Source: an uncultured Tidjanibacter sp. (lineage in GTDB: Bacteria; Bacteroidota; Bacteroidia; Bacteroidales; Rikenellaceae). Taken from it: DNA of 47,160 nucleotides. Positions 13,276-47,124 of this stretch are shown here, piece by piece. Under the pieces are notes generated by a model that was not told the DNA's origin, did not search any database, and worked only from the letters and a program-made list of their open reading frames with translations. Every line of letters starts with the position of its first letter. The first letter of the stretch is position 1. The DNA lies in the NCBI GenBank assembly GCA_947852905.1, contig CANTVF010000010.1, forward strand, positions 1 through 47,160, given 5' to 3'. A program made the translations under genes and the position numbers.

Positions 13276-13447
13276 TAAAGGGATCGTGTCAAAACTTAGC
13301 GTTTTGACACGATCCCTTTATGGTGTATGAGAACGGGTAAAATACAAAGGTGTGGATGTGAGGACGATAGGATTTTACGGAAGTAAATAGCTTGGTCCGA
13401 ATCACGATAAAAACGCAACAGACTGCCCGTTATGACACACTGTCAAT
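13276..13447 (+). repeat. dispersed intergenic repeat, copy A (hairpin plus conserved blocks)
   Basis: The hairpin is a perfect 20-bp stem (13276-13295 with 13301-13320) and 5-nt loop, starting 67 nt after the lipoprotein stop. Downstream are conserved block 1 (13385-13400, AAATAGCTTGGTCCGA) and block 2 (13421-13440, GACTGCCCGTTATGACACAC). Copies B (34775) and C (46955) share both blocks with the same 36-nt offset but different stems. The hairpin probably terminates the glycogen operon. The rest of 13209-13604 shows nothing else. Confidence 0.8.
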
Positions 13448-13604
13448 TTATCTCCCGACATGCGTACTGTTCGTACAACACCCGCAACGACATGTCGCCT
13501 ATTCCTGACCCGCCGTTTTCCACATGACCCGTAAACACCGCCTGCCTCTGACGGCCGAATACGGAAACATATACGAATGCAAACCGCACGCAACGCGATA
13601 CCGG

Positions 13605-14255
13605 CTAATAGGAGTCGGACGCACGCCGGTATTCGATAATGTCGGCAATCGTCAAGACCGGGAAACCGTGGTCAGCACCGAAACCAATGATCTGCGGCAA
13701 TCGTGCCATAGTCCCGTCCTCATTGGTCAGTTCACACAATACAGCGGCATCGCCCAATCCGGCGATACGGACAATATCCACACTACCTTCCGTATGACCG
13801 TCGCGTTCGAACACTCCGCCAGCGCGTGCGATCAACGGAAACACGTGTCCCGGTTTGCAAAGGTCTCCCGGACGTGCCCCTTCGGCAATGGCTGTCCTTA
13901 TGGTCGTTATCCTGTCTGCGGCCGACACCCCTGTCGTAACGCCGCTGGCAGCCTCTATAGATACAGTGAAATTGGTCCCGTAACGGCTGGTATTATCCCG
14001 CACCATAAGCCGTAGATCGAGTTCGGCCGCTTTCCTGTCCGTAATACACAGACACACTATGCCGCTGCATTCGCGTATCATCAAAGCCATATCGGCGACA
14101 GTCATACTGCTCGCCGGAAAAACAAGGTCTCCTTCGTTTTCCCTGTTCTCGTTATCGACGAGCAATATACCGCGTCCGCCGCGCAGAGCTTCCACGGCTT
14201 TCTCTACTCGCTGCCGGGCATTGCCGGCAAGTTTCACGCAATCCGTCATTTTCAT
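13605..14255 (-). CDS. ribB: 3,4-dihydroxy-2-butanone 4-phosphate synthase
   Basis: A 216-residue stand-alone RibB. It converts ribulose 5-phosphate to formate and the four-carbon precursor of riboflavin. Signature stretches: D34-N-E-N-R-E-N-E-G-D43 (metal and substrate loop), [17 protein letters not shown] and H-T-E-G-S-V-D-I. No GTP cyclohydrolase II (RibA) domain is attached, unlike the RibBA fusion common in many bacteria. The gene is isolated: AraC on the right is divergent and the dispersed repeat lies on the left. I looked for an FMN riboswitch in the roughly 170-nt leader and found none. Confidence 0.95.
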
Positions 14256-14424
14256 AATACTGTTCTTGTAAACGTTGAATAAATCCCATATACGCCGGAC
14301 GGATCGTTCTCCAAGCCGTTCCGCAATTTCTCAATGCTCCAGTCACCGCATCACGTGCATACGGTCGAGTACATACCGGTAGCCCCCCGATAAGGACGCA
14401 TTTCTTCCGACCTGCCGACAACGG

Positions 14425-14432
14425 CAAAGATA
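14425..14432 (-). promoter_or_regulatory. probable -7 element for ribB
   Basis: TATCTTTG on the minus strand (14432-14425) matches the Bacteroidetes consensus. It implies a leader of about 165 nt before the ribB ATG. The -33 region is only a weak match. Confidence 0.5.
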
Positions 14433-14480
14433 ATTCTGCCGCACGACAGGAAATGATCTTAAATTAACATAACATAATAC

Positions 14481-28004: not shown

Positions 28005-28026
28005 TTCATACTTTTTATCCAATTTG

Positions 28027-28034
28027 CAAAGTTA
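28027..28034 (-). promoter_or_regulatory. probable -7 element for the cyclotransferase-metH unit
   Basis: TAACTTTG on the minus strand (28034-28027) matches TAnnTTTG, about 23 nt upstream of the preferred ATG at 28004. The -33 match is poor. Confidence 0.5.
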
Positions 28035-33123: not shown

Positions 33124-34749
33124 ATGGAATTCAAGACACTCAAAGAGATATACACCAACAGCATCCGTAAATACGGCAGTCGTCCGTCATTCTCGATGCT
33201 CGAACGCGAGTCGATGACATACAACGATTTCGACGACCGCGTGGAATACGTCCGGGGAATACTCCTCGGAGCCGGAATCGGCAGCGGAGACAAAGTGGCG
33301 TTGCTCAGCGGCAACATGCCCAACTGGAGCGTCTGTTATTTCGCTATAGTCACCTCCGGCATGATAGCAGTCCCCATACTGCCCGACTTCTCCGGCCCGG
33401 AACTCGACATGATAATAACACACTCGGAAGCCAAGGCTCTTATGGTATCCGACAAACTCTACTCGCGCATCTCCAAAGAGGTGCTCGACCGCATGAACGT
33501 AGTAGTGCGTACCAAGAATCTGGGCATCATATCCCGCAACTCGTCGGAACTCGGCGAGCCTTCCGAACCGGGCCCCGACGATCTTGCCGTAATCATCTAT
33601 ACTTCGGGTACCACCTCGTCGCCCAAAGGCGTCATGCTGACGCACTACAACATAGCTTCGCAGATCTGTATGGAACGCGAACTGTTCCCAGTCCACCCCC
33701 AAGACATATTCCTGTCCATACTGCCGCTGTCTCACACTTACGAATGTTCCGTAGGCATGCTGCTGCCGTTCATGTGCGGCGCATCGGTCGTATACGTCGA
33801 CAGGCCGCCTACGGCCACCAACCTGCTTCCCGCCCTGCGCGAAGTACGCCCGACGATAATGCTTAGCGTACCGCTAGTCATAGAAAAGATATACAAGACG
33901 CAGGTAGCCGCAAAATTCAACGGCAACGCCGTAATGCGTTGGCTGTATTCCAAGGATTTTTTCCGACGCAGGCTGCACGAGATGGCGGGCAAACGTCTGT
34001 TCAGACTTTTCGGGGGACGTCTGCGGTTCTTCGGCATAGGCGGCGCCAAACTCGATTACGATGCGGAACGCTTCCTGCTGGAAGGCCACTTCCCCTACGC
34101 CATCGGCTACGGACTGACCGAAACCGCCCCGCTCATCGCGGGCGCCGTTCCGGGCAAAACACGTCTCGGCTCCACCGGTCCGGTACTCAAAGGTATCGAA
34201 GCGCGTCTCGACAACCCCAACGAGCTCGGCGAAGGCGAACTGGTGGTCAAAAGTCCGTGTACCATGCGCGGTTACTATAAAAGCCCCGAACTGACCGCAG
34301 AGGTGTTCACTCCCGACGGCTGGTTCCGCACGCGTGATTTGTGTTCAATAGACACGGACGGCTATCTGTATATCAAAGGCCGACTGGGCAACATGATAGT
34401 AGGTCCCAACGGAGAGAACATCTATCCGGAGGATATCGAAAGCGTACTTAACAGCCATTTCCTCGTATCCGACTCAATAGTACAACAGAACGACGGCAAA
34501 CTCGTAGCCCTCGTGCGATTCGACCGCGCCGAACTCGAAAAACGGTATCATGAATTTCGCGACGACCTCTCCACAACCATGGAGGATATAAAGGCCGACA
34601 TCATGAAATACGTGAATTCTAAAGTCAACCGGTCTTCCAAAATAGCCAAAATCGAAGAACACGAAAAGGATTTCGAGAAAACCCCTTCGCATAAAATAAA
34701 ACGATACCTCTACGTCAAAAAGAACAAGGACGACAATAACAAGTCATAA
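33124..34749 (+). CDS. long-chain acyl-CoA synthetase (AMP-forming)
   Basis: A 541-residue ANL-superfamily adenylating enzyme that activates a fatty acid with ATP and then CoA. Seen: the phosphate loop Y-T160-S-G-T-T-S-S-P-K-G (residues 159-169), Y-G-L-T-E-T-A-P-L near 330, W-F-R-T-R-D-L for the hinge region and T-P-S-H-K-I-K-R near the C terminus with the adenylation lysine. It is of the FadD/LACS type that works on exogenous fatty acids at the inner membrane face. It is divergent from queG and followed, after 25 nt, by copy B of the dispersed repeat. Confidence 0.92.
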   Translation: MEFKTLKEIYTNSIRKYGSRPSFSMLERESMTYNDFDDRVEYVRGILLGAGIGSGDKVALLSGNMPNWSVCYFAIVTSGMIAVPILPDFSGPELDMIITHSEAKALMVSDKLYSRISKEVLDRMNVVVRTKNLGIISRNSSELGEPSEPGPDDLAVIIYTSGTTSSPKGVMLTHYNIASQICMERELFPVHPQDIFLSILPLSHTYECSVGMLLPFMCGASVVYVDRPPTATNLLPALREVRPTIMLSVPLVIEKIYKTQVAAKFNGNAVMRWLYSKDFFRRRLHEMAGKRLFRLFGGRLRFFGIGGAKLDYDAERFLLEGHFPYAIGYGLTETAPLIAGAVPGKTRLGSTGPVLKGIEARLDNPNELGEGELVVKSPCTMRGYYKSPELTAEVFTPDGWFRTRDLCSIDTDGYLYIKGRLGNMIVGPNGENIYPEDIESVLNSHFLVSDSIVQQNDGKLVALVRFDRAELEKRYHEFRDDLSTTMEDIKADIMKYVNSKVNRSSKIAKIEEHEKDFEKTPSHKIKRYLYVKKNKDDNNKS

Positions 34750-34774
34750 ACAGGAATGTCAGGGATAACCTCTC

Positions 34775-34924
34775 AGGGGATGCGTCACAGCGTTGTGACG
34801 CATCCCCTTAATGTATGTAAGAACGGATTAAATGCAAAACACTGAGAGTGAATTCTCCGACGTAAATGACTTAGTCCGAATTATGAAAGAAGCTCAGAAG
34901 ATTGTCCGTCATGATACACCGTCA
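34775..34924 (+). repeat. dispersed intergenic repeat, copy B
   Basis: Starts 25 nt after the acyl-CoA ligase stop with a 15-bp stem (34775-34789 with 34794-34808, loop GCGT). Conserved block 1 is AAATGACTTAGTCCGA (34864-34879) and block 2 is GATTGTCCGTCATGATACAC (34900-34919). The stem sequence differs from copy A by paired changes while the blocks are kept. The remaining stretch to 35102 shows no gene. Confidence 0.8.
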
Positions 34925-35102
34925 TTTTTTTATCGCCATTCCCTGCCGTTAAAAAACGTATGCAACATAAAAGAGGGTTATTACAACGGGAATCGACGCA
35001 GAAAAACATACAATACCGTATGCCAAGGCAATGCAACGGATACAGCCGGCAACATTCTCCCGGCAACGGCCGGATATGAATGCGGGAAACGGCACGGACA
35101 CA

Positions 35103-36455
35103 TCAGAACGGATTCCGATCGTCTATGGCGTTGGCTATTTCAGGCACTATACCGCTGTCCGACATGCGCTCCCGCGTAGCCGCCCTTACCCGCGGACGAT
35201 AATATTCATATACGCATGCAGTGACGACGCATATTATTCCCGAACCGAATATCACCGCCGTAAGCGACGTCCGTTCGGCTATCCAGCCGTAGAAAAGGCC
35301 TCCCAACGGATTCAGTCCCGCCGACGCCATGGTAAAGAAACTCATCACCCTCCCGCGCATGTCGTCGTCCACGAGACTTTGCAACAACGTATTGCTCGTC
35401 GCCAAAGTACCGATCAACGCACATCCTATAGGATATGCTATGACTATCGCAACGACAGGAATCTTAACGAAAGCTATGGACATGAAACCGGCTCCGAGGA
35501 GCAATCCCGTAAGAGTCAAGACCTTACCCAAGCCGCGTATCTTATGCCGCGCGGCAAGGTAAAACGCGGCAGTAACCGCTCCGGCACCTATCGCCGAATT
35601 GACATAACCGAGCAGTATGCTGTCGCCGCCGAGCGTTCCCTTCACGAGCGCAGGTACCACATTGACGAACGGCATACCGAAGAAACTGATGACCCCGACA
35701 CAGACTATAACGGCCTTCAACGGCAGATAACCCTTAACATAATCGAATCCGGAACGGAACTCCTCCAACATGCTGCGGCGCACGCCCGACGGCCGGTATG
35801 GATCGAGCCTCATCATGAAAAGCGCTACGAGTACGGGAATGAAACTGATACCGTTGATAATGAAACAATAACCTTCGCCGACCAGACTTATCAACACTCC
35901 GCCTATGGCCGGACCTATGAAACGCGACCCGTTGACCGTAACTGAGTTGAGCGCAATGGCATTCGTCAACGATTGCGGAGGCACCAGTTTGGAATAGAAC
36001 GACTGTCGCGCAGGAGCCTCTATGGCCGAAGCTATACCGGAAAAAAAGCTTATGACCATTACATGCCACACCCGGATAGCATCCGTCACGGCGAGTCCGC
36101 CGAGCAAAAACGCCACGCACATCAAAGCTGTCTGCGTGCCGACCAGTATACGGAAACGGTCGTAACGGTCACTCAACACCCCGGCGAGCGGCGCGAGCAA
36201 CAGCGTAGGAATCTGATTGATGAAAGCGACAGTCGTAAGCATCATTACCGAGCCGGTGAGCCGGTATACCAGCCAGCTCATCGCGATACTCTGTATCCAT
36301 CTGCCGCACAACGAAAAACACTGGCCTGTAAAATACAAACGGAAATTCCGGACTTTCAGAGATGAAAAAGCCGACATAAGGCCACGCAGGCTGCCGGTAC
36401 GCAATTCGCCCAATTCGTTGCGTTTCCACACGAAATATCCGGAAAGTCTCTTCAT
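35103..36455 (-). CDS. major facilitator superfamily transporter (EntS/MFS_3 type)
   Basis: A 450-residue inner-membrane protein with about 12 membrane segments. N-terminal F-R-L-Y-F-T-G-Q-C-F-S-L-C-G-R-W-I-Q and the loop 2-3 motif G-V-L-S-D-R-Y-D-R-F-R match the MFS_3 (DUF894) group, to which the enterobactin exporter EntS belongs. A-P-A-R-Q-S-F lies near residue 155, and the last third has the repeated G-x-x-x-N-P-L-G-G-L. The first 30 residues are an extra cytoplasmic basic tail, so M at 26 may be the start. The exported compound is unknown and no siderophore gene is nearby. Confidence 0.88.
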   Translation of the reverse strand: MKRLSGYFVWKRNELGELRTGSLRGLMSAFSSLKVRNFRLYFTGQCFSLCGRWIQSIAMSWLVYRLTGSVMMLTTVAFINQIPTLLLAPLAGVLSDRYDRFRILVGTQTALMCVAFLLGGLAVTDAIRVWHVMVISFFSGIASAIEAPARQSFYSKLVPPQSLTNAIALNSVTVNGSRFIGPAIGGVLISLVGEGYCFIINGISFIPVLVALFMMRLDPYRPSGVRRSMLEEFRSGFDYVKGYLPLKAVIVCVGVISFFGMPFVNVVPALVKGTLGGDSILLGYVNSAIGAGAVTAAFYLAARHKIRGLGKVLTLTGLLLGAGFMSIAFVKIPVVAIVIAYPIGCALIGTLATSNTLLQSLVDDDMRGRVMSFFTMASAGLNPLGGLFYGWIAERTSLTAVIFGSGIICVVTACVYEYYRPRVRAATRERMSDSGIVPEIANAIDDRNPF

Positions 36456-36630
36456 CTCCCGTAAAGCCGGTTATTCAAAAATCATAACTATTATCCCCCC
36501 CAACCACACCTTAGCCGACGACAGTGTCCACCGAATCAGCATCGCTCATGCTCATCACCTAACTGTAACCCGCCGCCCACACATACGCTACGACGCAATA
36601 TGCACAAAGCCCGGCGAATACACAACAAAA

Positions 36631-36660
36631 AACGGCGACCAACACAGATCGGTCGCCGTT
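36631..36660 (-). terminator. terminator of tRNA-Glu
   Basis: A perfect 10-bp stem (36631-36640 with 36651-36660) with a T-rich tail (GTTTTTTG) on the minus strand, 8 nt after the tRNA 3' end. Confidence 0.8.
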
Positions 36661-36668
36661 ATTCCCGG

Positions 36669-36740
36669 TACTCCATACCAGAATCGAACTGGTATTTGCA
36701 GAATGAGAATCTGCTGTCCTAACCGTTAGACGAATGGAGC
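36669..36740 (-). tRNA. tRNA-Glu (anticodon CTC)
   Basis: The minus strand folds as a tRNA: acceptor GCTCCAT with ATGGAGT, D-arm with A-C-G-G-T-T-A-G-G-A, anticodon stem GCAGA/TCTGC with loop TTCTCAT (anticodon CTC), and T-arm ACCAG-TTCGATT-CTGGT. The terminal CCA is not encoded. G1 pairs with U72 as a wobble. Confidence 0.95.
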
Positions 36741-36780
36741 GGTTATTTGCCTCAGCCGCCATTATGGCTTTCGAGTGGTG

Positions 36781-36811
36781 CAAATGTACGACAAATATCG
36801 TAAACTGCAAA
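36781..36811 (-). promoter_or_regulatory. promoter of tRNA-Glu
   Basis: Read on the minus strand, TTTG (36811-36808), exactly 19 nt, then TACATTTG (36788-36781). This is a complete sigma-ABfr consensus, placed about 40 nt before the tRNA 5' end. Confidence 0.8.
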
Positions 36812-36935
36812 ATATCATGACACGAAATTATTCTAAGAAAAAACGATTTGCCACAAGCGCTCGTATTACCACCTCCCAATATACCCCACATATACCAAAC
36901 GTTACCGCGGTACGCATTGTATACCAGCGCTCTAA

Positions 36936-37225
36936 CGTCCTAACACCGCAAACCGATAACATGCACGAAAACCGACTCGCCGCCATAAACCGGCACCGAC
37001 AAATACACATGTGGAGACAAAAACAAATTGTTCCTACATCCGACAAAAGTCAGACACGTTATAAAAAGAATGCAGCCTGACATCCTAACACAATTAACCG
37101 CAAACCGACAACATGCATGAAAACCGACTCGCCGCCATAAACCGGCACCGACAAATACCATACGTGCAAACGAAAACAGATTGTTCCTGACACCCGCCAA
37201 AAGTCTGTCACGCTATAAAACGAAT
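36936..37225 (-). repeat. imperfect tandem duplication of about 150 bp
   Basis: Two units with a 152-nt offset: CGCAAACCG at 36947 and again at 37099, each followed by the ACATGCA-GAAAACCGACTCGCC region and CATAAACCGGCACCGACAAATA, then an A-rich part, TTGTTCCT and GTC-CAC-CG-TATAAAA. No reading frame is shared. It lies between the rpmA terminator and the tRNA promoter. Nothing else is seen in 36741-37283. Confidence 0.8.
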
Positions 37226-37259
37226 CCGTCCGCAGACCGATAAAAGTCTGCGGACGGAT
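37224..37259 (-). terminator. terminator of rplU-rpmA
   Basis: A 14-bp perfect stem (37224-37237 with 37246-37259), 8-nt loop, 25 nt beyond the rpmA stop. The minus strand continues TTCGTTTTA. Confidence 0.8.
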
Positions 37260-37283
37260 CGTTAAACAATGTCTCTCGTTGCC

Positions 37284-37544
37284 CTATTCGGTAACGGGGG
37301 TTACGCTTACGTAAGATCTGCCGTTGGTTTTCTTTGCAAAAGAAACGGTTCCGTCAACCAATGCGAAAAGCGTATGGTCTTTACCCATACCCACATTCTC
37401 GCCCGGATTGTGTACGGTACCCCTCTGGCGTACTATGATATTGCCCGCTTTGGCGAACTCGCCGCCAAACAATTTAACGCCGAGTCGCTTGCTTTCGGAC
37501 TCACGGCCGTTCTTAGAGCTACCTACTCCTTTCTTGTGTGCCAT
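37284..37544 (-). CDS. rpmA: 50S ribosomal protein L27
   Basis: An 86-residue L27 with the canonical opening [14 protein letters not shown]-(E/D)-S and [18 protein letters not shown]27's N terminus reaches the peptidyl-transferase centre. It follows rplU by 20 nt in the conserved rplU-rpmA order. The N-terminal sequence is not preceded by the cleaved extension found in Firmicutes. Confidence 0.97.
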
Positions 37545-37564
37545 CTCCTGAAAATGTTTAAACG

Positions 37565-37879
37565 TTAAGCGACTGTAATGTCTTCGATAAGTATCTGGGT
37601 AAGGAACTGACGGTGACCGTTTTTAACCTTATACCCTTTTCTGCGTTTTTTCTTGAATACGATAACCTTGTCATCTTTCAGGTGACGAAGTATTTTTGCA
37701 TTCACCGAGGCGCCTTCTACTACAGGTGCGCCCACCTTGACCTGACCGTCGTTGTCTGCGAGCAGGACCTTGTCGAAACTCAAGGAAGCACCTTCGTCTC
37801 CCTGAAGACGGTTAACATAGAGTTTCCGACCTTTTTCAGCCTTGAACTGTTTGCCTGCGATTTCTACTATTACGTACAT
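37565..37879 (-). CDS. rplU: 50S ribosomal protein L21
   Basis: A 104-residue L21 of normal length when started at the ATG at 37879 ([12 protein letters not shown]). The frame is open further upstream to 37906, but the first nine codons overlap the leader. Typical parts are V-N-R-L, D-K-V-L-L, and F-K-K-K-R-R-K-G-Y near residue 76, with Q-F-L-T-Q-I at the end. A minus-strand TATCTTTG at 37922-37915 gives a 30-40 nt leader; the TTTG upstream is 16 nt away, shorter than ideal. L21 opens a two-gene unit with rpmA. Confidence 0.96.
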
Positions 37880-37914
37880 ATATTCTTTTGAAGAATTTTT
37901 GCTCAATCAGCGTG

Positions 37915-37922
37915 CAAAGATA
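37915..37922 (-). promoter_or_regulatory. -7 element for rplU-rpmA
   Basis: TATCTTTG on the minus strand; TTTG at 37942-37939 lies 16 nt upstream rather than the ideal 19. Confidence 0.55.
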
Positions 37923-38069
37923 ATTACTTTTAATTCACCAAACAATAGCCGCCATATTTATTTATCGTAGCGTTTCGCCTCACCGCAGAAAAACACACGT
38001 AATTCGCACTCCGGCGAAACGCTACACTCATTTGTTCCCAGAGCCAATATGCACTTATGATTTTTTCCC

Positions 38070-38077
38070 TAAATTTG
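38070..38077 (+). promoter_or_regulatory. probable -7 element for the GH31-like gene
   Basis: TAAATTTG matches TAnnTTTG, 47 nt before the ATG at 38124. No good -33 element. Confidence 0.45.
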
Positions 38078-38123
38078 CATAGTCCGCAACAGATGCCGGA
38101 CACCACGACAAGTCAGATTTCAG

Positions 38124-39599
38124 ATGCGTAAAATATTATATATTACCGCAATCGCGTTAGCCGCCACAATGTCGGCCGTAGCACAAACTTCAGACACGCT
38201 CCGCGTGGCAACCCTCCGCGACGAAAGATGGTGGGGACTTTTCAACGACACGCAGACAACCCAACCTTTCAATACGCCATTCACCGCCGATCTGTCCGGC
38301 CGAAGCTCGGCAATGCCGCTGCTCGTCTCCTCTCAGGGACGGTATATTTGGGCGCCGGACGCAACGACCATAGAGTTCGACGGCAAGACTTTCTCCGTAG
38401 CAGGTTCCGATGCGACAGCCGTTACGGGTAAAAAGGGACGTACCGTCCGCGAAGCCTACCTTTATTGTATCCACCGATACGTATGGCCGGAATCGCAGCA
38501 CGAAATCATTCTCCCGAAAACGCCTATTTACATTCTTCCGGCAGGCACCGACTTAAAAAGCGAGAATGTCGCAGGCACCGTACTGATTCCCGAGGGCTGG
38601 CAGAGCTACTGCGACGACCATATTTTCGACCTGAACGTCTTTCCCGACCCGCAACGGGACTTCGACGTGACGACGGATGCGGGTTATAAAACGATACTAA
38701 CCGTCACACCGTATATTCCGGCCTGCGGTCGCCCATACACCGATGCACTCAAACGCGGCGATCTGCTGACAGGCGACGACGGCCGGCCTGTGATATTCAG
38801 TTCCGAAGCCGGTTATTTCGCCTGCCTCGACGTAACAGTGCCGCACGTGAGGGAACGCATCCATGCAATGCTCGCAGAATTGCACACCGCTTACGGAATC
38901 GAAACATTCCTCTTCGATTGTAGCCGAATACTGCCCGAACTGTCCGCTGACAAACGGGAAGACTTCGCTTTCTGGTGGAAAAGCGTATGCGAGGCATATC
39001 CCGGCTCCGTGACAGGAATCTCCGACGGAACAGTCGAACGCTGGCATCCGACGGCTTTCATGCCCGCAACAAACGCCACATGGCAATCTTTGGCCGACAC
39101 TCTCACGGCGATTATAGCGGCAGGTTTTTCCGGTTACACATACCCATGCATGCCGTCATGCACGACAGCCGGAGACGACGAACTCTTGCAGTTGCGCATA
39201 TTGCAACTCGCCGCAATGATGCCTCTGCCCGTCATATACCCCGCAGAAGACATTTTCAGTTCGGAAAAGCTGAACGAGGCTCTGGCAAACACCTATGCAC
39301 AGCGGCTCGCAATGCTGTCGTACACCGAAGAACTGCTCCGCGAATCCACCTCCACGGGCGAACCTACGGTAAGACACATGGATTACCAATTTCCGGGCGA
39401 AGGATTCGCCGATTGCGACGACCAATATATGCTCGGAGCCGAATACCTCATAGCCCCAGTAACCGATCCTTCCGGCAAACGCACCGTCAGACTGCCGAAA
39501 GGAAGGTGGCAGGATTGCGACGGCACAAAATATAAAGGTCCTCGCGTCGTTAATATAGACGTCAGCGACGGGAAAATACCAGTATTCAAGGCATTGTAA
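38124..39599 (+). CDS. secreted GH31-like protein with degenerate active site
   Basis: A 491-residue protein with a type I signal peptide (cleavage after M-S-A-V-A, leaving Q as the first mature residue). It has an abbreviated N-terminal beta domain, a barrel region with G-W-Q-S-Y-C-D-D-H-I-F-D and F-P-D-P, and the GH31 C-terminal part (M-D-Y-Q-F-P-G-E-G-F, D-D-Q-Y-M-L-G-A-E-Y-L-I-A-P-V, L-P-K-G-R-W-Q-D). The nucleophile position may be D265 in E-T-F-L-F-D-C-S-R. Where active GH31 enzymes have S/H-D-I-G-G-F with the acid-base Asp, this protein reads G337-Y-T-Y-P-C-M-P-S-C, with no Asp. It is shorter than typical GH31 enzymes and may bind rather than cleave glycans, or use another residue. Confidence 0.72.
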   Translation: MRKILYITAIALAATMSAVAQTSDTLRVATLRDERWWGLFNDTQTTQPFNTPFTADLSGRSSAMPLLVSSQGRYIWAPDATTIEFDGKTFSVAGSDATAVTGKKGRTVREAYLYCIHRYVWPESQHEIILPKTPIYILPAGTDLKSENVAGTVLIPEGWQSYCDDHIFDLNVFPDPQRDFDVTTDAGYKTILTVTPYIPACGRPYTDALKRGDLLTGDDGRPVIFSSEAGYFACLDVTVPHVRERIHAMLAELHTAYGIETFLFDCSRILPELSADKREDFAFWWKSVCEAYPGSVTGISDGTVERWHPTAFMPATNATWQSLADTLTAIIAAGFSGYTYPCMPSCTTAGDDELLQLRILQLAAMMPLPVIYPAEDIFSSEKLNEALANTYAQRLAMLSYTEELLRESTSTGEPTVRHMDYQFPGEGFADCDDQYMLGAEYLIAPVTDPSGKRTVRLPKGRWQDCDGTKYKGPRVVNIDVSDGKIPVFKAL

Positions 39600-39696
39600 C
39601 CTACCGGGCGACTACGCAAAGGAATTTTATTCCTCCCCGCGGCCTCAAACGGTATGAAATATGTACCCACACGAATCAAAAACACAATAACCGCAA

Positions 39697-40536
39697 ATGA
39701 TCACCAGCGAACAAAAGGAATATCTCCTGCCCAAAGCATGCAATGCAGCCATACGGGCGGGAGCTGCGATACTCGACATTTACGAAAGCGGCGCCGAAGT
39801 GGACGTCGACATCAAAAGCGACCACTCCCCGATAACCCAAGCCGATCGCGACGCGCATAAAGTCATCAGGGAATATCTCGGTCAGACGCGCATACCGCTG
39901 CTGAGCGAAGAAGGCCGCGAAATGCTGTACGCCGAACGGAAGGACTGGGATCTGTTCTGGATGGTCGATCCGCTGGACGGAACCGTGGAATTTCTCAAGG
40001 GCAACGGAGAATTTACCGTCAACATAGCCCTCATGACCGACAATGTTCCCGCATTCGGCGTCATATACGTTCCCTACAGGCGCAGACTCTACTTTTCGGA
40101 TTGCGACCGCGGTGCGTTCCGCTCGTGCGAGATAGCCGCCGACCATAACGCCGAATACGGCTATTACGACCTTTTCGCCGAAGCACAGCAACTGCCCGTT
40201 ACCGCCAAAGCCAACGATCCCATAAAAATAGCTGTAAGCCGCTCGCACCGTAACGACGAAACGATAAGACACATCGAGAAAATCATACATGCCCACCCCG
40301 GTGCTGAAATCATCGAACAGGGTAGTTCGTACAAACTGTGCCTCATAGCCGAAGGTACCATAGACTACTATCCGCGAACGACGGATACATACGAATGGGA
40401 TACGGCAGCCGGCGAGGCCATAATCGCCAAGGCCGGAGGTTCCATAGAGGCCATAGACGGAAGCGGCAGACTGCGTTACAACAAGCAGCAGTTGCATAAT
40501 CCGCATTTCGCCTGCCGCAGCAAATGGTTCGCCTGA
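39697..40536 (+). CDS. cysQ: 3'(2'),5'-bisphosphate nucleotidase (inositol monophosphatase fold)
   Basis: A 279-residue enzyme of the IMPase superfamily, CysQ group, which removes phosphate from 3'-phosphoadenosine 5'-phosphate (PAP), a by-product of sulfate assimilation and sulfotransfer. Metal-binding residues are visible: T-Q-A-D-R-D-A, S-E-E-G, W-M-V-D-P-L-D-G-T-V-E-F and the C-terminal W-D-T-A-A-G-E-A. The usual neighbours (sulfate adenylyltransferase) are not here. It begins 97 nt after the GH31-like stop and may share its transcript; a perfect bidirectional terminator follows. Confidence 0.9.
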   Translation: MITSEQKEYLLPKACNAAIRAGAAILDIYESGAEVDVDIKSDHSPITQADRDAHKVIREYLGQTRIPLLSEEGREMLYAERKDWDLFWMVDPLDGTVEFLKGNGEFTVNIALMTDNVPAFGVIYVPYRRRLYFSDCDRGAFRSCEIAADHNAEYGYYDLFAEAQQLPVTAKANDPIKIAVSRSHRNDETIRHIEKIIHAHPGAEIIEQGSSYKLCLIAEGTIDYYPRTTDTYEWDTAAGEAIIAKAGGSIEAIDGSGRLRYNKQQLHNPHFACRSKWFA

Positions 40537-40660
40537 CAGACAGAGCGGCATTCACATGGGACATATAGAACTGCTCCCGTCATCTAAAAGACACCAACGC
40601 GCACTGAATAATCATATCTTGTGTCTCCACACGCAAGGAATACGGCCACGAAATACACAA

Positions 40661-40709
40661 TAAACGCTACGGGCTGTCGGACGATTTGTCCGACAGCCCG
40701 TAGCGTTTT
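40661..40709. terminator. bidirectional terminator, 22-bp perfect stem
   Basis: Arms 40661-40682 and 40688-40709 are perfectly complementary around a 5-nt loop; both ends are TAAA/TTTA. It separates convergent cysQ and the small Cys-rich membrane protein gene. Confidence 0.85.
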
Positions 40710-40802
40710 ACGTTCACCGGAACATGACCGGAGCGATTTTTCGTACAAAACAACACACACCGCATGTCATACCCGGCGAAAAATCCGCAACTCCGGAGTA
40801 AA

Positions 40803-41057
40803 CTATTTCGTCATTATCGAGTCGCACGACCCGCAATTTCCCGCGCTGCAACCCAGACAATCCTCTTCGGATTTCTTTCCGTCGAGTTCGAGCGTCTCCT
40901 GAACGGCACACTTTATGCCCCGCTCCTTCATGTGTTCGTTGTCGCTTATTTCCGACTTGATGTTATGACCCTTGAATATGAGTGTCAGAGACATTCCGAC
41001 AACGAAGAATGCTACCAACACTACGGCTATCAATATGACAAGCAATGTAGACGACAT
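40803..41057 (-). CDS. small membrane protein with cysteine-rich cytoplasmic tail
   Basis: An 84-residue protein that I do not recognise as a named family. I place its start at the ATG at 41057 (M-S-S-T-L-L-V-I-L-I); the open frame extends further but those residues are Cys/Gly-rich low-quality coding. Residues 4-28 are one membrane helix, followed by a charged linker and the tail D-C67-L-G-C70-S-A-G-N-C75-G-S-C78, plus C50. The CxxCx4CxxC tail could hold zinc or an iron-sulfur cluster. The layout recalls the NqrM (DUF539) maturation factor, one helix plus four Cys, but the motif differs and no nqr genes are near. Confidence 0.65.
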   Translation of the reverse strand: MSSTLLVILIAVVLVAFFVVGMSLTLIFKGHNIKSEISDNEHMKERGIKCAVQETLELDGKKSEEDCLGCSAGNCGSCDSIMTK

Positions 41058-41347
41058 ATCTGTAAAATATTTTCCATTAGACCGGACGGTATACAAGCCC
41101 CCTCCCCCATTGCGAAAATTTGCATCCCCGCGGGCAGCGGACCCATTACTGCCGGTAACCATATACAGGCAAATTCCATGCAAATGTAACGACTGCCGGC
41201 GAAACGGACAAGAACAGCCGCATCCGTCTGCGGATACCGCCCGGATAATTCGTTCTCTAAACACGAACATGGTTGAAACAGATGAATTTTAACGCTTTCT
41301 TAGTGAAATATTCACCCACGGCGACGGCAATCTCACGGTAAAGTTAT

Positions 41348-41355
41348 TAAATTTG
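41348..41355 (+). promoter_or_regulatory. probable -7 element for trkA
   Basis: TAAATTTG matches TAnnTTTG, 37 nt before the ATG at 41392. No TTTG at the ideal spacing. Confidence 0.45.
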
Positions 41356-41391
41356 TAGTGATTATCTTCCATTCAAAGAAATCGACAACAG

Positions 41392-42729
41392 ATGAAAATC
41401 ATAATCGCAGGCGCCGGTGAAGTAGGCACGCACCTGGCCAAGATGCTCAGCGGCGGAGGCCACGACATTACCGTTATCGACACCGACCCGAAACTTCTGG
41501 ACGACGTCGAGGGCATGGCCGACATTCTCACCATAGAGGGAGATTCGACGACCTTCTCCGCTCTCAAGAAAGCGTCGGTACGCAAGGCCGACCTGTTCAT
41601 CGCCGTCAACCACGAAGAGAACATCAACATAATATCCGCCATACTGGCCAAACAGCTCGGCGCACGCAAGTCCATAGCCCGCATAGACAACAACGAATAT
41701 CTGGAGCCCAACAACAAGGAGATGTTCATGAACATGGGCATCGACTACCTGTTCTATCCCGAAAAAGTCGCGGCACTCGAAGTCATCAACCTGTTGGGAC
41801 ACACATCCACCACCGAATACGTGGACTTCTCCGGCGGACGTCTCGCACTGGTGGTCTTTCCTCTCGACAGATCTTCGGAATTCACCGGCAAGACCGTCGC
41901 CGAAGTCAACGAAATGGCCGGCGACCTCTTCTCCCCCGTGGCCATAAGCAGGGACGACAAAACGATAATCCCCCACTCGCGCGACATGTTCTACGAAGGC
42001 GACACGGTATACATAATCGCCAACAACGAAGCCGCAAAGACGGTCATGAACTATTCTGGCAAAACGAACGTCTCGATACGCAACCTGATGATTCTGGGCG
42101 GAAGCCGTATCGGAGTACGTATAGCAACGGAACTACAGGACGAGCTGAACGTAAAGCTGATCGAATACAACTCCGACAAAGCGTACCGTCTGGCCGAAAT
42201 GCTCGACAAGACGCTCATCATCAACGAAGACGGCCGCGACATAGACGCCATGTTAGAGGAGGGGCTCACGAGCATGGACGCATTCGTCGCGGTAACCGGA
42301 CGTTCGGAAACCAACATTCTGACCGCCATGCTCGCCAAGCGCATGGGCGTCAAGAAGGTCATAGCCGAAGTAGAGAATCTCACGTACATAAACCTCGCCG
42401 AGAGTATCGGCATAGATACCATAATCAACAAGAAACAGATCACCGCGAGCCGTATATTCCGGTTTACCATGGACACCGACGTGCAGGCTATAAAATGCCT
42501 TACCGGCAGCGAGGCCGAAGTTCTGGAATTCGTCGTCAAACCGGACGCTCCGGTTTCCAAAGCGAAACTGGGGCAGGTCGGTTTCCCGGACAACGCCATA
42601 GTAGGCGGCATCGTGCGCGGAGACAAGGTATTCATTCCCGACGCCGAATTTCAAGTAAACCCTTACGACCGCGCCGTAGTCTTCGCACTTCCGGCAGCTA
42701 TTCCGCGCATAGGCAAGTTTTTCAACTGA
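41392..42729 (+). CDS. trkA: Trk-type potassium uptake regulatory subunit TrkA
   Basis: A 445-residue peripheral protein with two NAD-binding RCK_N/RCK_C pairs. The first Rossmann motif is G7-A-G-E-V-G-T-H-L near the start, with D30 binding the ribose, and the second is L-G-G-S-R-I-G-V-R-I near residue 235. Each is followed by a TrkA_C domain (F-P-L-D-R-S-S-E-F-T-G-K-T-V; V-S-K-A-K-L-G-Q-V). TrkA gates the membrane subunit TrkH in response to nucleotide binding. trkH is normally adjacent but is not in this window; a GH3 gene follows instead, 64 nt downstream. Confidence 0.93.
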   Translation: MKIIIAGAGEVGTHLAKMLSGGGHDITVIDTDPKLLDDVEGMADILTIEGDSTTFSALKKASVRKADLFIAVNHEENINIISAILAKQLGARKSIARIDNNEYLEPNNKEMFMNMGIDYLFYPEKVAALEVINLLGHTSTTEYVDFSGGRLALVVFPLDRSSEFTGKTVAEVNEMAGDLFSPVAISRDDKTIIPHSRDMFYEGDTVYIIANNEAAKTVMNYSGKTNVSIRNLMILGGSRIGVRIATELQDELNVKLIEYNSDKAYRLAEMLDKTLIINEDGRDIDAMLEEGLTSMDAFVAVTGRSETNILTAMLAKRMGVKKVIAEVENLTYINLAESIGIDTIINKKQITASRIFRFTMDTDVQAIKCLTGSEAEVLEFVVKPDAPVSKAKLGQVGFPDNAIVGGIVRGDKVFIPDAEFQVNPYDRAVVFALPAAIPRIGKFFN

Positions 42730-42793
42730 CAGGCTGCGACACGCATGTCCGAAAGCCGGATAACCCCTGCTACAACCACACATACTTCACCGC

Positions 42794-44317
42794 ATGGCTT
42801 ATATAAACAAAATCATAAATATGTACTTCTCCGGCAGGCTCCGGGAAATAGACCGTTTCCGACGACATCCGGCCGAAGTACAGCAAAAGCAGTTCGAATA
42901 TCTCCTCGAACACGGAGTGAAAACCGAATTCGGAATCGACACCGGAATGCGTGGCATCTCCACTCCGGAACAATACCGTAGCCGCATCCCCATATACGAT
43001 TACCCTACTATCAGCGAGTTCATAGACCGTATGCGTCGCGGCGAAAAGAACGTTCTCTGGCCCGAAGAGGCCAAGTGGTTCGCAAAGTCTTCAGGTACCA
43101 CAGGCTCCAAAAGCAAGTTCATACCCGTAACCATGGAAGGCCTGCGCAAATCCCATATGCGCGGTCCCAAAGACATCATGGCGATATACTGCCACCTCTA
43201 CCCAAAGTCATCCGTCGTGCTGGGCAAGATGCTTACACTCGGAGGCTCGAAAAAGATAGAGCGCGAAGGCGACAGCATGCTTTCCGGCGACCTGTCGGCC
43301 ATACTCATAGAAAACACGCCGGCCATTGCCGACATACTGCGTATACCGGACAAAAAGACGGCGCTGATACCGGACTTCGACGAAAAGGTGCGTATCATAG
43401 CCGAACGCTCCACCCGCGAAGACGTCCGCTCGTTCACGGGCGTGCCGTCGTGGAATCTCGTCATGCTCAACAAAATCCTCGAGTACACCGGCAAAAAGGA
43501 CATACTCGAAATATGGCCACGTATGGAGTTGTTCGTCCACGGAGGCATGGATTTCAGACCTTACGAAGCGCAGTACCGCAAGATAATACCCTCGCCCGAC
43601 ATGCGTTACATGGAGACATACAACGCATCGGAAGGCTTCTTCGCCATAGCCGAGGAGCCGGGCAGACAGGACATGCTGCTGATGCTCGACTACGGCACCT
43701 ACTACGAATTCATGCCTACCGACCGACTGGGCGACCCCTCGGCAGTCGTACCTCTCGAAGGCGTCCGCCCCGGCGTTAACTACGCCATGATAATATCCAC
43801 GTGCAACGGCCTGTGGCGTTACATGATAGGCGACACGGTACAGTTCGTATCCACCGACCCGTACACCATAAAAATTACCGGCCGCACGAAACACTACATC
43901 AACGCATTCGGCGAGGAGATCGTCATAGACAACGCCGAAGCCGCCATGCTCAAGGCATGCGAAGCCACCGGAGCCCACATAGCCGACTACACCGCCGCGC
44001 CGGTCTATATGGAGGGGCGCAGCAAAGGCGCACACGAATGGGTGATAGAATTCCGCACGCCTCCCGACGATCTGGGCAAATTCGCCGAAGCTCTCGACAA
44101 GGGTTTGCAGGAGGTCAACTCCGACTACGAAGCCAAACGCTTCAAGAGCACCACGCTGACAGGACCGCGAATCACTCCCGTTCCGCAGGGCTCGTTCGAG
44201 GGGTGGCTCCGTTCGCAGGGAAAGATAGGCGGACAGAACAAGGTGCCGCGCCTTTACAACGACCGTACATATGCCGACGAAATAATACATTTCGCCACGG
44301 GCATGGGACGTGACTGA
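42794..44317 (+). CDS. GH3 auxin-responsive promoter family protein (acyl acid-amido synthetase fold)
   Basis: A 507-residue ANL-superfamily enzyme of the plant GH3 family (PF03321), also common in Bacteroidetes. Seen: the ATP-binding A-K-S-S-G-T-T-G-S-K-S-K near residue 93, Y-N-A-S-E-G-F-F near 273, and Y-M-I-G-D-T-V-Q-F and I-T-G-R-T-K-H-Y-I-N-A-F-G-E-E in the C-terminal third. Plant members join amino acids to jasmonate or auxin; bacterial substrates are mostly unknown. The start at 42794 follows trkA by 64 nt. No signal peptide. Confidence 0.9.
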   Translation: MAYINKIINMYFSGRLREIDRFRRHPAEVQQKQFEYLLEHGVKTEFGIDTGMRGISTPEQYRSRIPIYDYPTISEFIDRMRRGEKNVLWPEEAKWFAKSSGTTGSKSKFIPVTMEGLRKSHMRGPKDIMAIYCHLYPKSSVVLGKMLTLGGSKKIEREGDSMLSGDLSAILIENTPAIADILRIPDKKTALIPDFDEKVRIIAERSTREDVRSFTGVPSWNLVMLNKILEYTGKKDILEIWPRMELFVHGGMDFRPYEAQYRKIIPSPDMRYMETYNASEGFFAIAEEPGRQDMLLMLDYGTYYEFMPTDRLGDPSAVVPLEGVRPGVNYAMIISTCNGLWRYMIGDTVQFVSTDPYTIKITGRTKHYINAFGEEIVIDNAEAAMLKACEATGAHIADYTAAPVYMEGRSKGAHEWVIEFRTPPDDLGKFAEALDKGLQEVNSDYEAKRFKSTTLTGPRITPVPQGSFEGWLRSQGKIGGQNKVPRLYNDRTYADEIIHFATGMGRD

Positions 44318-44610
44318 CAACGAAAAGACAGATAACGGCAAACTCTATCGGTTAAGAATACCGACAGGCGGAAGCGCCACAAACCTCCGTAGCCCGTTCA
44401 AGCCACGAACAGGCAAACGCGACGAGGACATCCGAAGCCACGCAGCGGAACGGCATAGCCGGACAAGACCGGTACCGGAACGAAAGGAACAGCCGTGATC
44501 CGCCGCTCGACAACCGGGACACGAAAATACGACGGTGCAATGTATACCGGACAAACGCTACACCGCGCCGCACACGGGACTACACGACAATGACAAACAA
44601 AACTACCGAT

Positions 44611-45228
44611 ATGTACATAGCGATTTCAGGCAACATAGGCAGCGGCAAGACGTCGCTCACGGATCTGCTGACCGAGCGTCTCGGAGCTACGGCGCTATAC
44701 GAGGAGACCGGCAACCCTTACATAGCCGACTTCTACGAGGACATGAAACGCTGGTCGTTCAATTTCCAGATATATTTTCTCGGCTGCCGCATGAAACAGG
44801 GCATGACAATCCGCAATACGCCCGGTTATATCATACAGGACCGCACGATATACGAAGACGCCCTCATATTCGCAGCCAACCTTCACGAAATGGGTCTCAT
44901 GTCGTCGCGCGATTTCGACACATACATGAAAATATTCGAGTTGTCCGGCAATCTCATTCCTACGCCCGATCTGCTCATATACCTGCGAGCAAGCGTACCC
45001 ACGCTCGTCAGTCAGATACTCAAGCGAGGCCGCTGTTACGAAATGGGCATAGACATCGACTATCTGGAACGCTTGAACAACAAATACAACGACTGGATAG
45101 ACAACCGCTACGCCGGACGTGTCCTCACGATAGACATAGACAACGAAGATTTCATCCTCAACCCCTCGATAGTGGATGAAATAGTGGACAAGATAAAAGG
45201 GCTTGAAATCTCCGCGGAGAAACGCTGA
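44611..45228 (+). CDS. deoxynucleoside kinase family protein
   Basis: A P-loop kinase of about 205 residues when started at the ATG at 44611 (M-Y-I-A-I-S-G-N); the frame opens at 44590 with a 7-residue extension. The Walker A loop is G-N-I-G-S-G-K-T-S, with the E-E-T-G-N-P-Y-I base-binding region and Q-D-R-T-I-Y-E-D, whose D-R-T/S motif is diagnostic of dNK/dCK/dGK enzymes, which phosphorylate deoxynucleosides in nucleotide salvage. The lid is R-G-R-C-Y-E-M-G. The exact nucleoside cannot be read from sequence. It sits about 293 nt after the GH3 gene. Confidence 0.88.
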   Translation: MYIAISGNIGSGKTSLTDLLTERLGATALYEETGNPYIADFYEDMKRWSFNFQIYFLGCRMKQGMTIRNTPGYIIQDRTIYEDALIFAANLHEMGLMSSRDFDTYMKIFELSGNLIPTPDLLIYLRASVPTLVSQILKRGRCYEMGIDIDYLERLNNKYNDWIDNRYAGRVLTIDIDNEDFILNPSIVDEIVDKIKGLEISAEKR

Positions 45229-45296
45229 ACAACGGACAAGCGTCCGCCCGTACTCCAAATGGATTGCATAACCGACAACGAATAAAACTTACAGGT

Positions 45297-46931
45297 ATGA
45301 AAACTATTCTTACCCTCTCGGCGGCTCTCGCCATAGCATGCGCGGGCATGGCCGTACCTTACAGCACTCCGGCAAACGGCGCATCCGCAGTCTCGGCCAC
45401 TACGACCGATGCAGTTGCCGATGCCAAACATAGGATCGACGGCATCCGCAGTAACGGAAACTCCGAATCGTCGGAGACAGCGACGAAACCGCGAAGGCTG
45501 CGCGGCAACGGACGGCAGTTTACGCAGACTTTCGTAACGGCAGACGCATACAATTCGATACACGTATCCGACGGAATCGAAGTAACCGTTTCCGCATCGG
45601 CAGAATACATAAGCGTAACGGCAGACGAAAACATAATAAAATATGTAACCACAGACAGGTCGGGACGCACGCTGCGATTCTCTGCAAATTCACGCGTCAT
45701 CGACGGCGGTACGGTACAGGTAACCGTTCCCGCTTCGACAACCCTGCGCAATCTGACTGCCGAAAACGGCGGCTCGATAAATTGCGAAACACCGCTCGGT
45801 TACGGTAATGTAAACATACAGACCTCTGGCGGGGGAAGAGTCGTCGCCGACATAACGGAGGCGGGCAGACTGACGATGAAAATCTCAAGCGCAAGCAGTT
45901 TCAAAGGTTCCGCAGAGTGCCGCAGTTGCGACATAACGCTCTCTAACGCCTCGCGAGTTGATGCCCGAATAAAAAGTCTCGGCGATTGCCGACTGAATTG
46001 TTCGGGAGCGAGCGCATTCACAGGTGCGCTCGAAGGAGCGGACTGCAATGTCGCAGCCTCCGGCGGATCGTGCGTAGAAGCACATGTCAAAAGCGGTGAC
46101 AACGGTACGGTAACGCTTTCCAAAGCGAGCAGTTTTACGGGTACACTCGAAGGGGCGGATTGCAATGTCGCCGCCTCCGGCGGATCGTGTGTAGAAGCAC
46201 ATGTCAAAAGCGGCGACGACGGCACGGTAACGCTTTCCAAAGCGAGCAGTTTCAGCGGCTCCATGCAAGCCGTATGCGGCAAGATAATCTTGTCTGACGG
46301 ATCGGTAGCAGAAGCGCAGGTAGACTGCTCCGGTAAATGCGAAGCTACAGTATTGTCATCCAGCAGTTTCAACGGCTCGATAAACGCCGGACACGGTACA
46401 TTCAGCGTTTTGGGCGGCTCGGTATTCAACGCTCCCATAGCATGCGACGTACACGCCGACATTACACTGAGCCGCTCAGGTTCTCTGGAAGGCAATCTGT
46501 CCGGCCAATCGCTGCACATACATCTGTCAAGCGGCTCGGTACTGCACGGCGATGCATCCGCCGACGTCGTACTTATAGAAGCGTCCAATTCGAGCTATTT
46601 CGACGGGGACATATCGGCAGAAGGACAAGCCAACCTCGCCGGCACGAGCGGCAGCATCATTACGGGCAGCTTTACAGGCGGCCACATACACGCGGCGGCT
46701 ACAAACTCGGCGTTCATCGAACTGTTAGGTTCCGCGACAGTACCTACGGCCGTAATAGCCGTCTCATCGGGCGGAATATTCAATGCTCCCGACCTGCGCG
46801 TAACCGACTACTCGATAACCGCATCGTCGTCAGGCCACGCCGAAGTCTACTGCACGGGACTGTTGAACGAACAGATCACATCCGGCGGTACGGTAAGTCA
46901 TAACGGCGAATGCCGCGTACAACAATGGTAA
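45297..46931 (+). CDS. DUF2807 (head-GIN) beta-helix surface or periplasmic protein
   Basis: A 544-residue exported protein beginning M-K-T-I-L-T-L-S-A-A-L-A-I-A-C-A-G. A signal peptide is clear; whether C15 is a lipobox (A-I-A-C) is uncertain. After a low-complexity linker comes a DUF2807 domain (F-N-S-I-H-V-S-D-G-I-E-V-T-V; here Y-N-S-I), then many rungs of G-S/S-S-F-G-like repeats rich in Ser, Gly, Ala and Asn, forming a right-handed beta-helix of adhesin type. Residues about 241-318 are two nearly identical 39-residue copies (E-G-A-D-C-N-V-A-A-S-G-G-S-C-V-E-A-H). The function of this family is unknown; surface structure or adhesion is the usual guess. Confidence 0.85.
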   Translation: MKTILTLSAALAIACAGMAVPYSTPANGASAVSATTTDAVADAKHRIDGIRSNGNSESSETATKPRRLRGNGRQFTQTFVTADAYNSIHVSDGIEVTVSASAEYISVTADENIIKYVTTDRSGRTLRFSANSRVIDGGTVQVTVPASTTLRNLTAENGGSINCETPLGYGNVNIQTSGGGRVVADITEAGRLTMKISSASSFKGSAECRSCDITLSNASRVDARIKSLGDCRLNCSGASAFTGALEGADCNVAASGGSCVEAHVKSGDNGTVTLSKASSFTGTLEGADCNVAASGGSCVEAHVKSGDDGTVTLSKASSFSGSMQAVCGKIILSDGSVAEAQVDCSGKCEATVLSSSSFNGSINAGHGTFSVLGGSVFNAPIACDVHADITLSRSGSLEGNLSGQSLHIHLSSGSVLHGDASADVVLIEASNSSYFDGDISAEGQANLAGTSGSIITGSFTGGHIHAAATNSAFIELLGSATVPTAVIAVSSGGIFNAPDLRVTDYSITASSSGHAEVYCTGLLNEQITSGGTVSHNGECRVQQW

Positions 46932-46954
46932 CAGGCCGACCGAAAAGACAAAAA

Positions 46955-47124
46955 CACACCAACGGGGGAGCAAAACGCTGAGTTTTAACGTCCCTCCTTT
47001 GGTGTGTAAGAATTGTAAGATGCAAGGCTGTAAGGACGACAGGAGTTTGCGAAAGGTAAACGACTTAGCCCGATTCACGATATAAACGATGCGGATTGCC
47101 CGTTGTGACACACCGCCTTGTCTG
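46955..47124 (+). repeat. dispersed intergenic repeat, copy C
   Basis: Starts 23 nt after the DUF2807 stop: outer stem CACACCAA (46955-46962) with TTGGTGTG (46999-47006) around an imperfect inner stem. Block 1 is AAACGACTTAGCCCGA (47058-47073) and block 2 is GATTGCCCGTTGTGACACAC (47094-47113), again 36 nt apart. Confidence 0.8.

Follow-up and report, generated by a model that had tools for sequence, protein, structure and literature searches.

A probable fossil family of miniature inverted-repeat transposable elements in an uncultured Tidjanibacter sp., with an end hairpin that may serve as a transcription terminator

A 47,160-nucleotide stretch of DNA from an uncultured Tidjanibacter sp. (contig CANTVF010000010.1, positions 1 to 47,160; hereafter "the window") carries three copies of an intergenic element of about 170 nucleotides. 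The copies belong to a family dispersed through the genome, and they combine a well-maintained 5' hairpin with a longer body whose rod-like folding has decayed. Kin in a related genome are flanked by target-site duplications, and relatives of the folded core, which retain the rod structure, are present in many other species of the same order. In the window's genome, the copies consistently lie where genes end. On balance, we consider it probable that the elements are a fossil family of miniature inverted-repeat transposable elements (MITEs) and that their end hairpin now works as a putative transcription terminator.

Results and discussion

A dispersed family with a two-part anatomy

The genome from which the window derives (G000) comprises 2,236,194 bases in 17 contigs. 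A blastn search with the first window copy matched 35 further places, on both strands, that cover most of the query. This search missed the second and third window copies, which are too diverged. A covariance model (R1) built from 32 copies (alignment A2) found 50 full-length places, including the three window copies, as well as two weak or partial places. Of the latter two, C4:158472 (E = 0.098) is questionable. A 25-base match to the right end at C2:94919 lies within a coding sequence and looks like a chance occurrence. The initial annotation had described the element from its three copies in the window, at 13276-13447, 34775-34924 and 46955-47124. All three were located there, and searches of the genome and its relatives supplied further copies.

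Full copies in G000 are 139 to 176 nucleotides long and keep no open reading frame (ORF). Their mean pairwise identity is 71.5%, with a range of 57.7 to 90.0%. The layout is a 5' hairpin of ~43 nucleotides followed by a body of ~125 nucleotides with inverted-repeat ends. Read from the hairpin, a copy takes the form AAAGGGGTTGTGTCAAAAC-loop-GTTTTGACGCAACCCCTTT, with a body that starts GGTGTGTnAGAACGGGTAA and finishes TTGCCCGTTATGACACACCGTC. The hairpin arms are similar to the end of the body (GGTTGTGTCAAAAC versus GGTGTGTCATAAC). Terminal inverted repeats (TIRs) of the MITE type are present, in that the body arms are 72 to 83% paired in G000 and 93 to 97% paired in kin.

Two conserved blocks had been reported to start exactly 36 nucleotides apart, and this spacing holds in all three window copies (13385/13421, 34864/34900 and 47058/47094). 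Conservation is clear for the second block, which has three matches at up to three mismatches compared with none expected from 100 shuffles. The first block taken alone is weaker, with four matches, three of them the copies, against a shuffle mean of 1.04. However, conservation extends beyond the two blocks to the whole ~170 nucleotides. The second block corresponds to the right arm of the inverted repeat, and the first lies just after a small inner hairpin. The strong hairpins noted in the window copies are borne out by their folding energies and z scores (Table 1).

In an alignment of all 50 G000 copies (A3), 92.4% of hairpin cells are paired and both-sided changes occur in 14 of 18 pairs, whereas the body helices are 72 to 87% paired with few double changes. 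RNAalifold recovered only the 5' hairpin from 32 G000 copies, and the rod emerged once relatives were added. The body has also nearly lost its strand preference: the plus strand is the more stable one in 28 of 50 copies (-27.8 versus -26.0 kcal/mol).

One copy (G000:C1:43105-43273, locus L019) has its right end replaced by TTTTTTGTCCAATTTTGGGGGGCAGTTC. We take this sequence to resemble an IS3-type end, and an insertion sequence (IS) may have cut the copy.

Transposition of kin in a related genome

Evidence for mobility comes from G366, a complete genome of 2,186,370 bases in one contig. Copies in this genome are nearly identical (mean identity 98.1% among the eight fetched), start with GAGACTGTTGCA, end with TGCAACAGTCTC and have exact 12-bp terminal repeats. 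Direct duplications of 4 to 6 bp flank all eight, and six of these are exactly 5 bp at one offset, compared with a maximum of three in shuffles. The 12-mer end occurs at 49 places in G366 and at none in a reversed control. Thirty-two of these places form 16 pairs 162 to 164 bp apart, and 17 are single ends. In another relative, G300, similar ends with a flanking duplication of 4 to 5 bp were recognized by eye in two of four copies. In G366 the kin are clearly a small DNA transposon of the MITE type, and their duplications are those left by a transposase on insertion.

The suggestion in the initial annotation that the repeat is MITE-like holds for the family, because kin carry TIRs and target duplications, but no target duplication is left in G000, where none rose above shuffles at the 50 of 52 places used. 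This absence may reflect the great age of the copies. The family looks inactive in G000: it is old and without target duplications, and its rod pairing is decaying.

Searches for two transposase families, PF01609 and PF13751, brought up no parent with the same ends. DDE_Tnp_1 and DDE_Tnp_1_6 are absent from G000. The twelve DDE loci of G010, G040, G366, G213 and G300 include no IS that carries the rod, and none has the element's ends on both sides. In G213 and G300, end places are known only among the matches listed, which leaves room for IS-size pairs in these two genomes. One candidate, an IS-size pair of ends in G366 (126171/127792), proved to be two rod copies, one to each side of a 437-aa ORF; the right end of the second copy is mutated. 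A transposase piece in G213 (L259) has one end similar to that of the element. A fossil MITE family does not require its parent transposase in the same genome. Whatever moved the G000 copies has been lost, belongs to another family, or never resided in this genome.

Copies occupy gaps that hold gene 3' ends

Genes were called with a simple caller based on codon usage, and for all 50 full copies the overlap with a called gene, if any, stays within 20 nucleotides. The common orientation relative to the preceding gene that was observed for the three window copies does not extend to the whole family, because in six of these 50 copies the upstream neighbor is on the other strand, and a further copy has no upstream neighbor in view. 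Both neighbors are known for 47 copies, of which 29 reside in convergent gaps, 18 in codirectional gaps and none in divergent gaps. Other gaps of at least 60 nucleotides in the fetched stretches number 7, 70 and 23, respectively (Fisher p = 3e-12 for convergent and 1e-4 for divergent gaps), although this background is biased in that the stretches are centered on copies. Convergent and divergent gaps are roughly equal in frequency in any genome, and codirectional gaps are commoner. Therefore, the 29-to-0 ratio of convergent to divergent gaps is still strong despite the biased background.

At 29 gene ends, a same-strand copy lies within 70 nucleotides of the stop codon. The hairpin begins 14 to 68 nucleotides (median 24) past these stops, and no other hairpin with a score of at least 24 intervenes at any of them. 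A hairpin scoring at least 30 accompanies 79% of these ends. The proportion is 9% for 120 other non-operonic ends and zero for shuffled controls. Thus, the copies place a stable GC-rich hairpin shortly past the stop codon, as is expected for intrinsic terminators. The gene that precedes the second window copy, which encodes an AMP-binding enzyme, has orthologues in six congeners. In four of these, a strong but unrelated hairpin followed by T-rich DNA occurs at the same place past the gene, and in a fifth the hairpin is weaker (all judged by eye).

Taken together, these data suggest that the copies are old nonautonomous DNA transposons of the MITE type. The mobile unit would have consisted of a 5' hairpin, with arms like the end sequence, and an imperfect long palindrome (the rod). 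In G000, every gap in which copies are found contains the 3' end of a gene. There, the long hairpin, with A's before it and T's after it, most likely terminates transcription intrinsically, and at convergent sites it might do so for both genes. Copies may have been retained for this role.

Several observations weigh against this interpretation. The T run past the hairpin usually consists of only three T's (CCCCTTTAA). A terminator scan of window positions 28000-47160, which needs five T's in eight positions, listed 33 sites where 26.0 were expected, and the hairpins of copies 2 and 3 were not among them. The 3'-UTR (untranslated region) or terminator module proposed initially is favored by position, by hairpin conservation and by the unrelated hairpins of congeners, but not by these two features. 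Perfect hairpins are also kept far from same-strand stops, for example at C4:184509, which is 449 nucleotides away. Hairpin mismatches show little strand bias (29 G-T versus 22 A-C, excluding copies with a hairpin score below 8), and thus give no sign of selection on the RNA of one strand. The gene setting of 35 copies in relatives (G366, G300, G337, G139, G040, G010 and G041) also differs: as judged with a gene caller trained on little sequence, 12 have both neighbors on the plus strand, 15 have both on the minus strand, 5 are convergent and 3 are divergent. Because of this difference, G000 stands alone in its convergent excess and orientation bias, a pattern more in keeping with retention in that genome than with an insertion preference. 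The missing target duplications and parent transposase count on the same side, as do the signs of DNA-level copying presented below.

Elsewhere in the window, positions 40662-40708 form a 20-bp perfect hairpin between A and T runs, with a sequence unrelated to the element. It exemplifies the ordinary bidirectional terminator form in this genome.

Paired changes and the possibility of neutral retention

The top two column pairs by mutual information are the first and last bases of the hairpin loop (columns 21 and 25) and one stem pair. Further stem pairs come next, intermingled with column pairs that form no helix. The two loop bases switch jointly, with G..A in 20 copies, T..C in 12, A..A in 4 and T..T in 5, a pattern that resembles loop inversion. 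At locus L162, the left arm of the body, GAACTCAGTCACGTACT, is the exact reverse complement of the copy's own right arm, whereas relatives have GAACGAAGGAGCGTACT. To judge from these sequences, a DNA-level process is able to make paired changes without function. Because loop inversions and a copied arm are seen, paired changes in such hairpins are not proof of selection on their own. This calls for caution with short hairpins in general, in which paired changes can come from palindrome copying at the DNA level. Selection for pairing, such copying, or both could have produced the paired stem changes, and the data do not separate these causes.

The alternative that survives best, to which we assign a real but clearly smaller chance, is that dead MITEs are tolerated at gene 3' ends and that arm-copying errors of replication keep their hairpins perfect without any function. 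Both loop orientations, the copied arm at L162, the short T run and the perfect hairpins distant from same-strand stops are all in keeping with this possibility. However, avoidance of harm alone predicts no excess of convergent gaps, and yet copies favor these over codirectional gaps by 29 to 18 even though the latter are commoner in any genome. The tight spacing to the stop codon and the lack of another hairpin in between also count against it, although the biased background noted above applies to these comparisons. A putative role in termination remains our preferred explanation for the retention of the hairpins.

Distribution and structure of the rod in the order

Within the genus, R1 matched 9 of 23 genomes at E = 0.01, the window's own genome included. 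Strong copies are found only in G010, which has three. All of these are near genes that also have a G000 copy (L121/L078, L120/L079 and L119/L082), but they are oriented opposite to the shared gene, have a sequence specific to G010 and are of another subtype. We tentatively take them to have been inserted independently at the same gene ends or neighborhoods. Shared hot spots or the replacement of one copy by another might account for the shared neighborhoods.

The 20-base right end matched four stretches of the GTDB collection. Three are in an uncultured Bacteroidales metagenome-assembled genome (MAG), BRZ_QB bin6 (G040), and one is in an uncultured Alistipes MAG (G041). G040 yields 70 match rows at E = 0.01, including partial and opposite-strand rows. 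Some of its copies (L186-L194) have additional palindromic modules of 80 to 200 bp, attached to the tip of the rod or to its side. Individual modules are found again in other copies, which gives the impression of rods put together from exchangeable pieces.

Sixteen bodies from G040, G041 and G010 (alignment A6) form one long rod of 41 pairs, in which short helices are parted by tandem G-A mismatches. Both-sided changes occur in 20 of the 41 pairs and amount to 42 cells, compared with a shuffle value of 10.0 (none of 500 shuffles reached 42) and 1 to 4 cells in slid controls. The outermost arm varies between copies in a matched fashion (GGCGGTGTGT, GGAGGTGCGT, CCGGCATGT and GGCGGTTTGT).

Among 393 genomes from the order to which the window belongs, a rod model (R2) at E = 1e-7 detected the structure in at least 62, the window's own included, and in at least 44 of 206 genera; these counts are lower bounds, with up to eight candidates scored per genome. 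Rods were aligned to the R2 structure (alignment A7, 45 rows), so the alignment leans towards that structure in the following counts. When the three reverse-strand rows are excluded, the plus strand folds better in 40 of 42 rods (mean -52.1 versus -39.2 kcal/mol). GA is present on both sides in 125 of 291 internal loops of the 42 rods, and GA/GA is the commonest loop (66). Over all 45 rows, three of them reverse-strand, rod pairs include 134 G-U and 37 A-C. Conservation is highest in TGCAAGGC ... GGGAG-stem-TGAC ... GAAAGCAACGCAGCAG. A strong hairpin lies within 75 nucleotides upstream of 10 of 34 rods and in none of 34 control stretches, and sequence like the right end precedes 14 of the 34 (p <= 0.01 by shuffling). 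Kin in other genera have the rod core in common, whereas their end sequences differ.

Given the covariation of the rod, its strand preference and its regularly spaced tandem G-A mismatches, it seems to be read as a single strand. The G-U bias and G-A loops are better evidence for this than covariation is, because copying would give Watson-Crick pairs. Whether RNA or single-stranded DNA is the form that matters is not separated by these data. The structured RNA proposed in the initial annotation may be consistent with the covarying, strand-specific rod of relatives, which would fit either form. At gathering scores, Rfam models matched only a tRNA in the window, and kin loci gave only matches far below gathering scores.

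Leads to a wider distribution come from viral contigs. Plasmid and phage records gave no match at E = 0.01 or 0.001. With the threshold relaxed to E = 10 for phage cores, every match had an E value of at least 1. In viral contigs, two 18-base patterns had no match, two further patterns gave 0, and a 26-base core pattern occurs on three IMG/VR contigs (L265, L266 and L267). A full rod (89.9 bits) is present in L266, and to us the ORFs of this contig resemble those of a mobilizable element. L265 has the core (38.4 bits) at about 11950-12059, ~90 nucleotides upstream of the gene for a major head protein (PHROG 1005). L267 (about 8560-8720) is not reached by R2, and its core is 77 nucleotides before an ORF that we take to encode a tail tube protein. 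The rod core, GGGAGCATAC-4-GTATGTGACCGA, is thus seen in phage contigs of high GC content, a short distance ahead of structural genes and in a setting other than that of the repeats described here. These matches are leads only.

It is unlikely, in our estimation, that the rod represents a functional family of RNAs, or a single-stranded DNA structure, for which mobility is only a means of spread, with the hairpin as an accessory terminator or processing site. Such a role would account for the breadth of distribution, the covariation, the G-A loops, the strand-specific stability, the G-U bias and the core near a phage head protein gene. However, the rod has decayed in G000, where the body of window copy 2 folds no better than shuffles, its orientation to genes varies in relatives, and its distribution is patchy.

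A bolder reading, less likely than not but with a real chance, goes further. The tandem-G-A rod could be a functional single-stranded module, as RNA or DNA, that is under selection across the order and beyond, with ends exchanged between lineages like those of a cassette. The module might make insertions at gene ends tolerable and be used by phages before structural genes. G000 would then represent an end state, in which the hairpin has been taken over as a set of genome-wide terminators.

Other explanations

A repetitive extragenic palindrome (REP) moved by a Y1, or REP-associated tyrosine, transposase (RAYT) would likewise be palindromic and intergenic, and could share the absence of G000 copies from divergent gaps. 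We consider this very improbable. The Y1 family PF01797 has no matches in any of the four genomes searched (G000, G010, G040 and G041), whereas 5 of 14 control genomes match, and REP/RAYT was rejected for these four. In addition, G366 kin leave target duplications, and movement of the RAYT type is not known to produce them.

A minus-strand gene for a small conserved peptide, proposed initially and suggested by the VCHNGQSxxFLS-stop reading of many copies, is rejected: the similarity is not coding, since only 23 of 50 copies end after 11 to 13 residues, differences from the majority are even over codon positions (128/132/134) with no third-position bias, a stop lies within 12 codons upstream in 29 of 48 anchored copies (two of the 50 have no anchor), and only 17 of 50 have a start that gives at least 30 residues.

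Features of the window

Table 1. Parts of the three element copies in the window and their surroundings
Feature	Position	Strand	Structure	Energy (kcal/mol)	z score	Context
Copy 1, 5' hairpin	13276..13319	+	19 pairs, loop CTTAG-type of 5	-30.1	-11.5	67 nt past stop of NlpE-like gene 12711-13208
Copy 1, body (decayed rod)	13320..13444	+	left arm ~13322-13340, right arm 13421-13444		-2.7	
Copy 2, 5' hairpin	34775..34808	+	15 pairs	-29.4	-7.8	~25 nt past stop of AMP-binding enzyme gene 33124-34749
Copy 2, body	34811..34923	+	rod pairing lost; right arm 34900-34923		+0.4	
Copy 3, 5' hairpin	46954..47007	+	lengthened by ACACACCAA pairing with TTGGTGTGT	-26.1	-5.3	22 nt past stop of DUF2807 gene 45264-46931
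Copy 3, body	47001..47117	+	left arm ~47001-47018 (common to hairpin), right arm 47094-47117		-2.1	

The right end of copy 3 and the ~60 to 70 nucleotides beyond it (window positions 47094-47160) recur at the start of contig C11 (L106, 1-200), where this unit of slightly more than 110 bp is partly repeated in tandem. The window's contig and C11 are probably neighbors that were broken at this shared duplication. Near a tRNA-Glu gene, positions 36945-37000 and 37097-37152 form a 56-bp direct repeat that is 96% identical, with its units ~150 bp apart. TRF listed no array near this repeat.

Comparison with known systems

Porphyromonas gingivalis, which we presume to belong to the same order as the window's genome, carries elements of related design. 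In Table 2 of PMC4596501, ISPg4, a member of the IS5 family, and MITEPgRS/MITE464 are listed with the left TIR GAGACTGTTGCA, which equals the ends of G366 kin. MITEPgRS/MITE464 is likewise noncoding, intergenic and present in many copies (PMC4596501), and the sequence likeness is one of TIRs. In contrast to both of these elements, the window copies have the ends AAGGGGTTGTGTCAAAAC / GACGGTGTGTCATAAC. The BrickBuilt MITE of P. gingivalis (PMC4596501) resembles the window copies in being intergenic and having long stem-loops. However, its TIR GAGACCTTCGCA and internal 23-nucleotide repeats, when our alignments are read against Table 2 of that source, are both absent from the window copies.

REP/RAYT systems also consist of intergenic palindromes, for which roles in termination and mRNA stability are proposed in PMC3733652. 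According to the same source, they are 20 to 40 bp long, have GTAG or CGTC tags and are accompanied by RAYT genes, whereas the family described here measures 170 nucleotides and lacks a Y1 transposase in four of four genomes. SPRITE of Streptococcus pneumoniae, a repeat with a terminator-like hairpin, is a precedent in how it works; neither a rod nor an order-wide core is described for it in the available part of a review (PMC10969869). The same review names a terminator role as conceivable for MITEs, and it deals with ERIC and Correia elements.

By type, the element is a MITE, although the evidence from target duplications comes from a relative alone and no parent transposase has come to light. 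Our literature search, which covered few subscription papers, found no description of this repeat family. The ~50 copies in G000 amount to natural replicates of one hairpin near gene ends, which makes the takeover of a transposon end as a terminator testable. ERIC and Correia elements are intergenic imperfect palindromes of 100-odd bp, some of which are located at gene 3' ends. Compared with these, by description, the family reported here has regular tandem G-A mismatches, and its genera share an internal core rather than a terminal repeat. A transposon family usually keeps its ends while its interior drifts. Thus, the unusual feature of this family is its pattern of conservation, in which the core is kept and the ends are exchanged.

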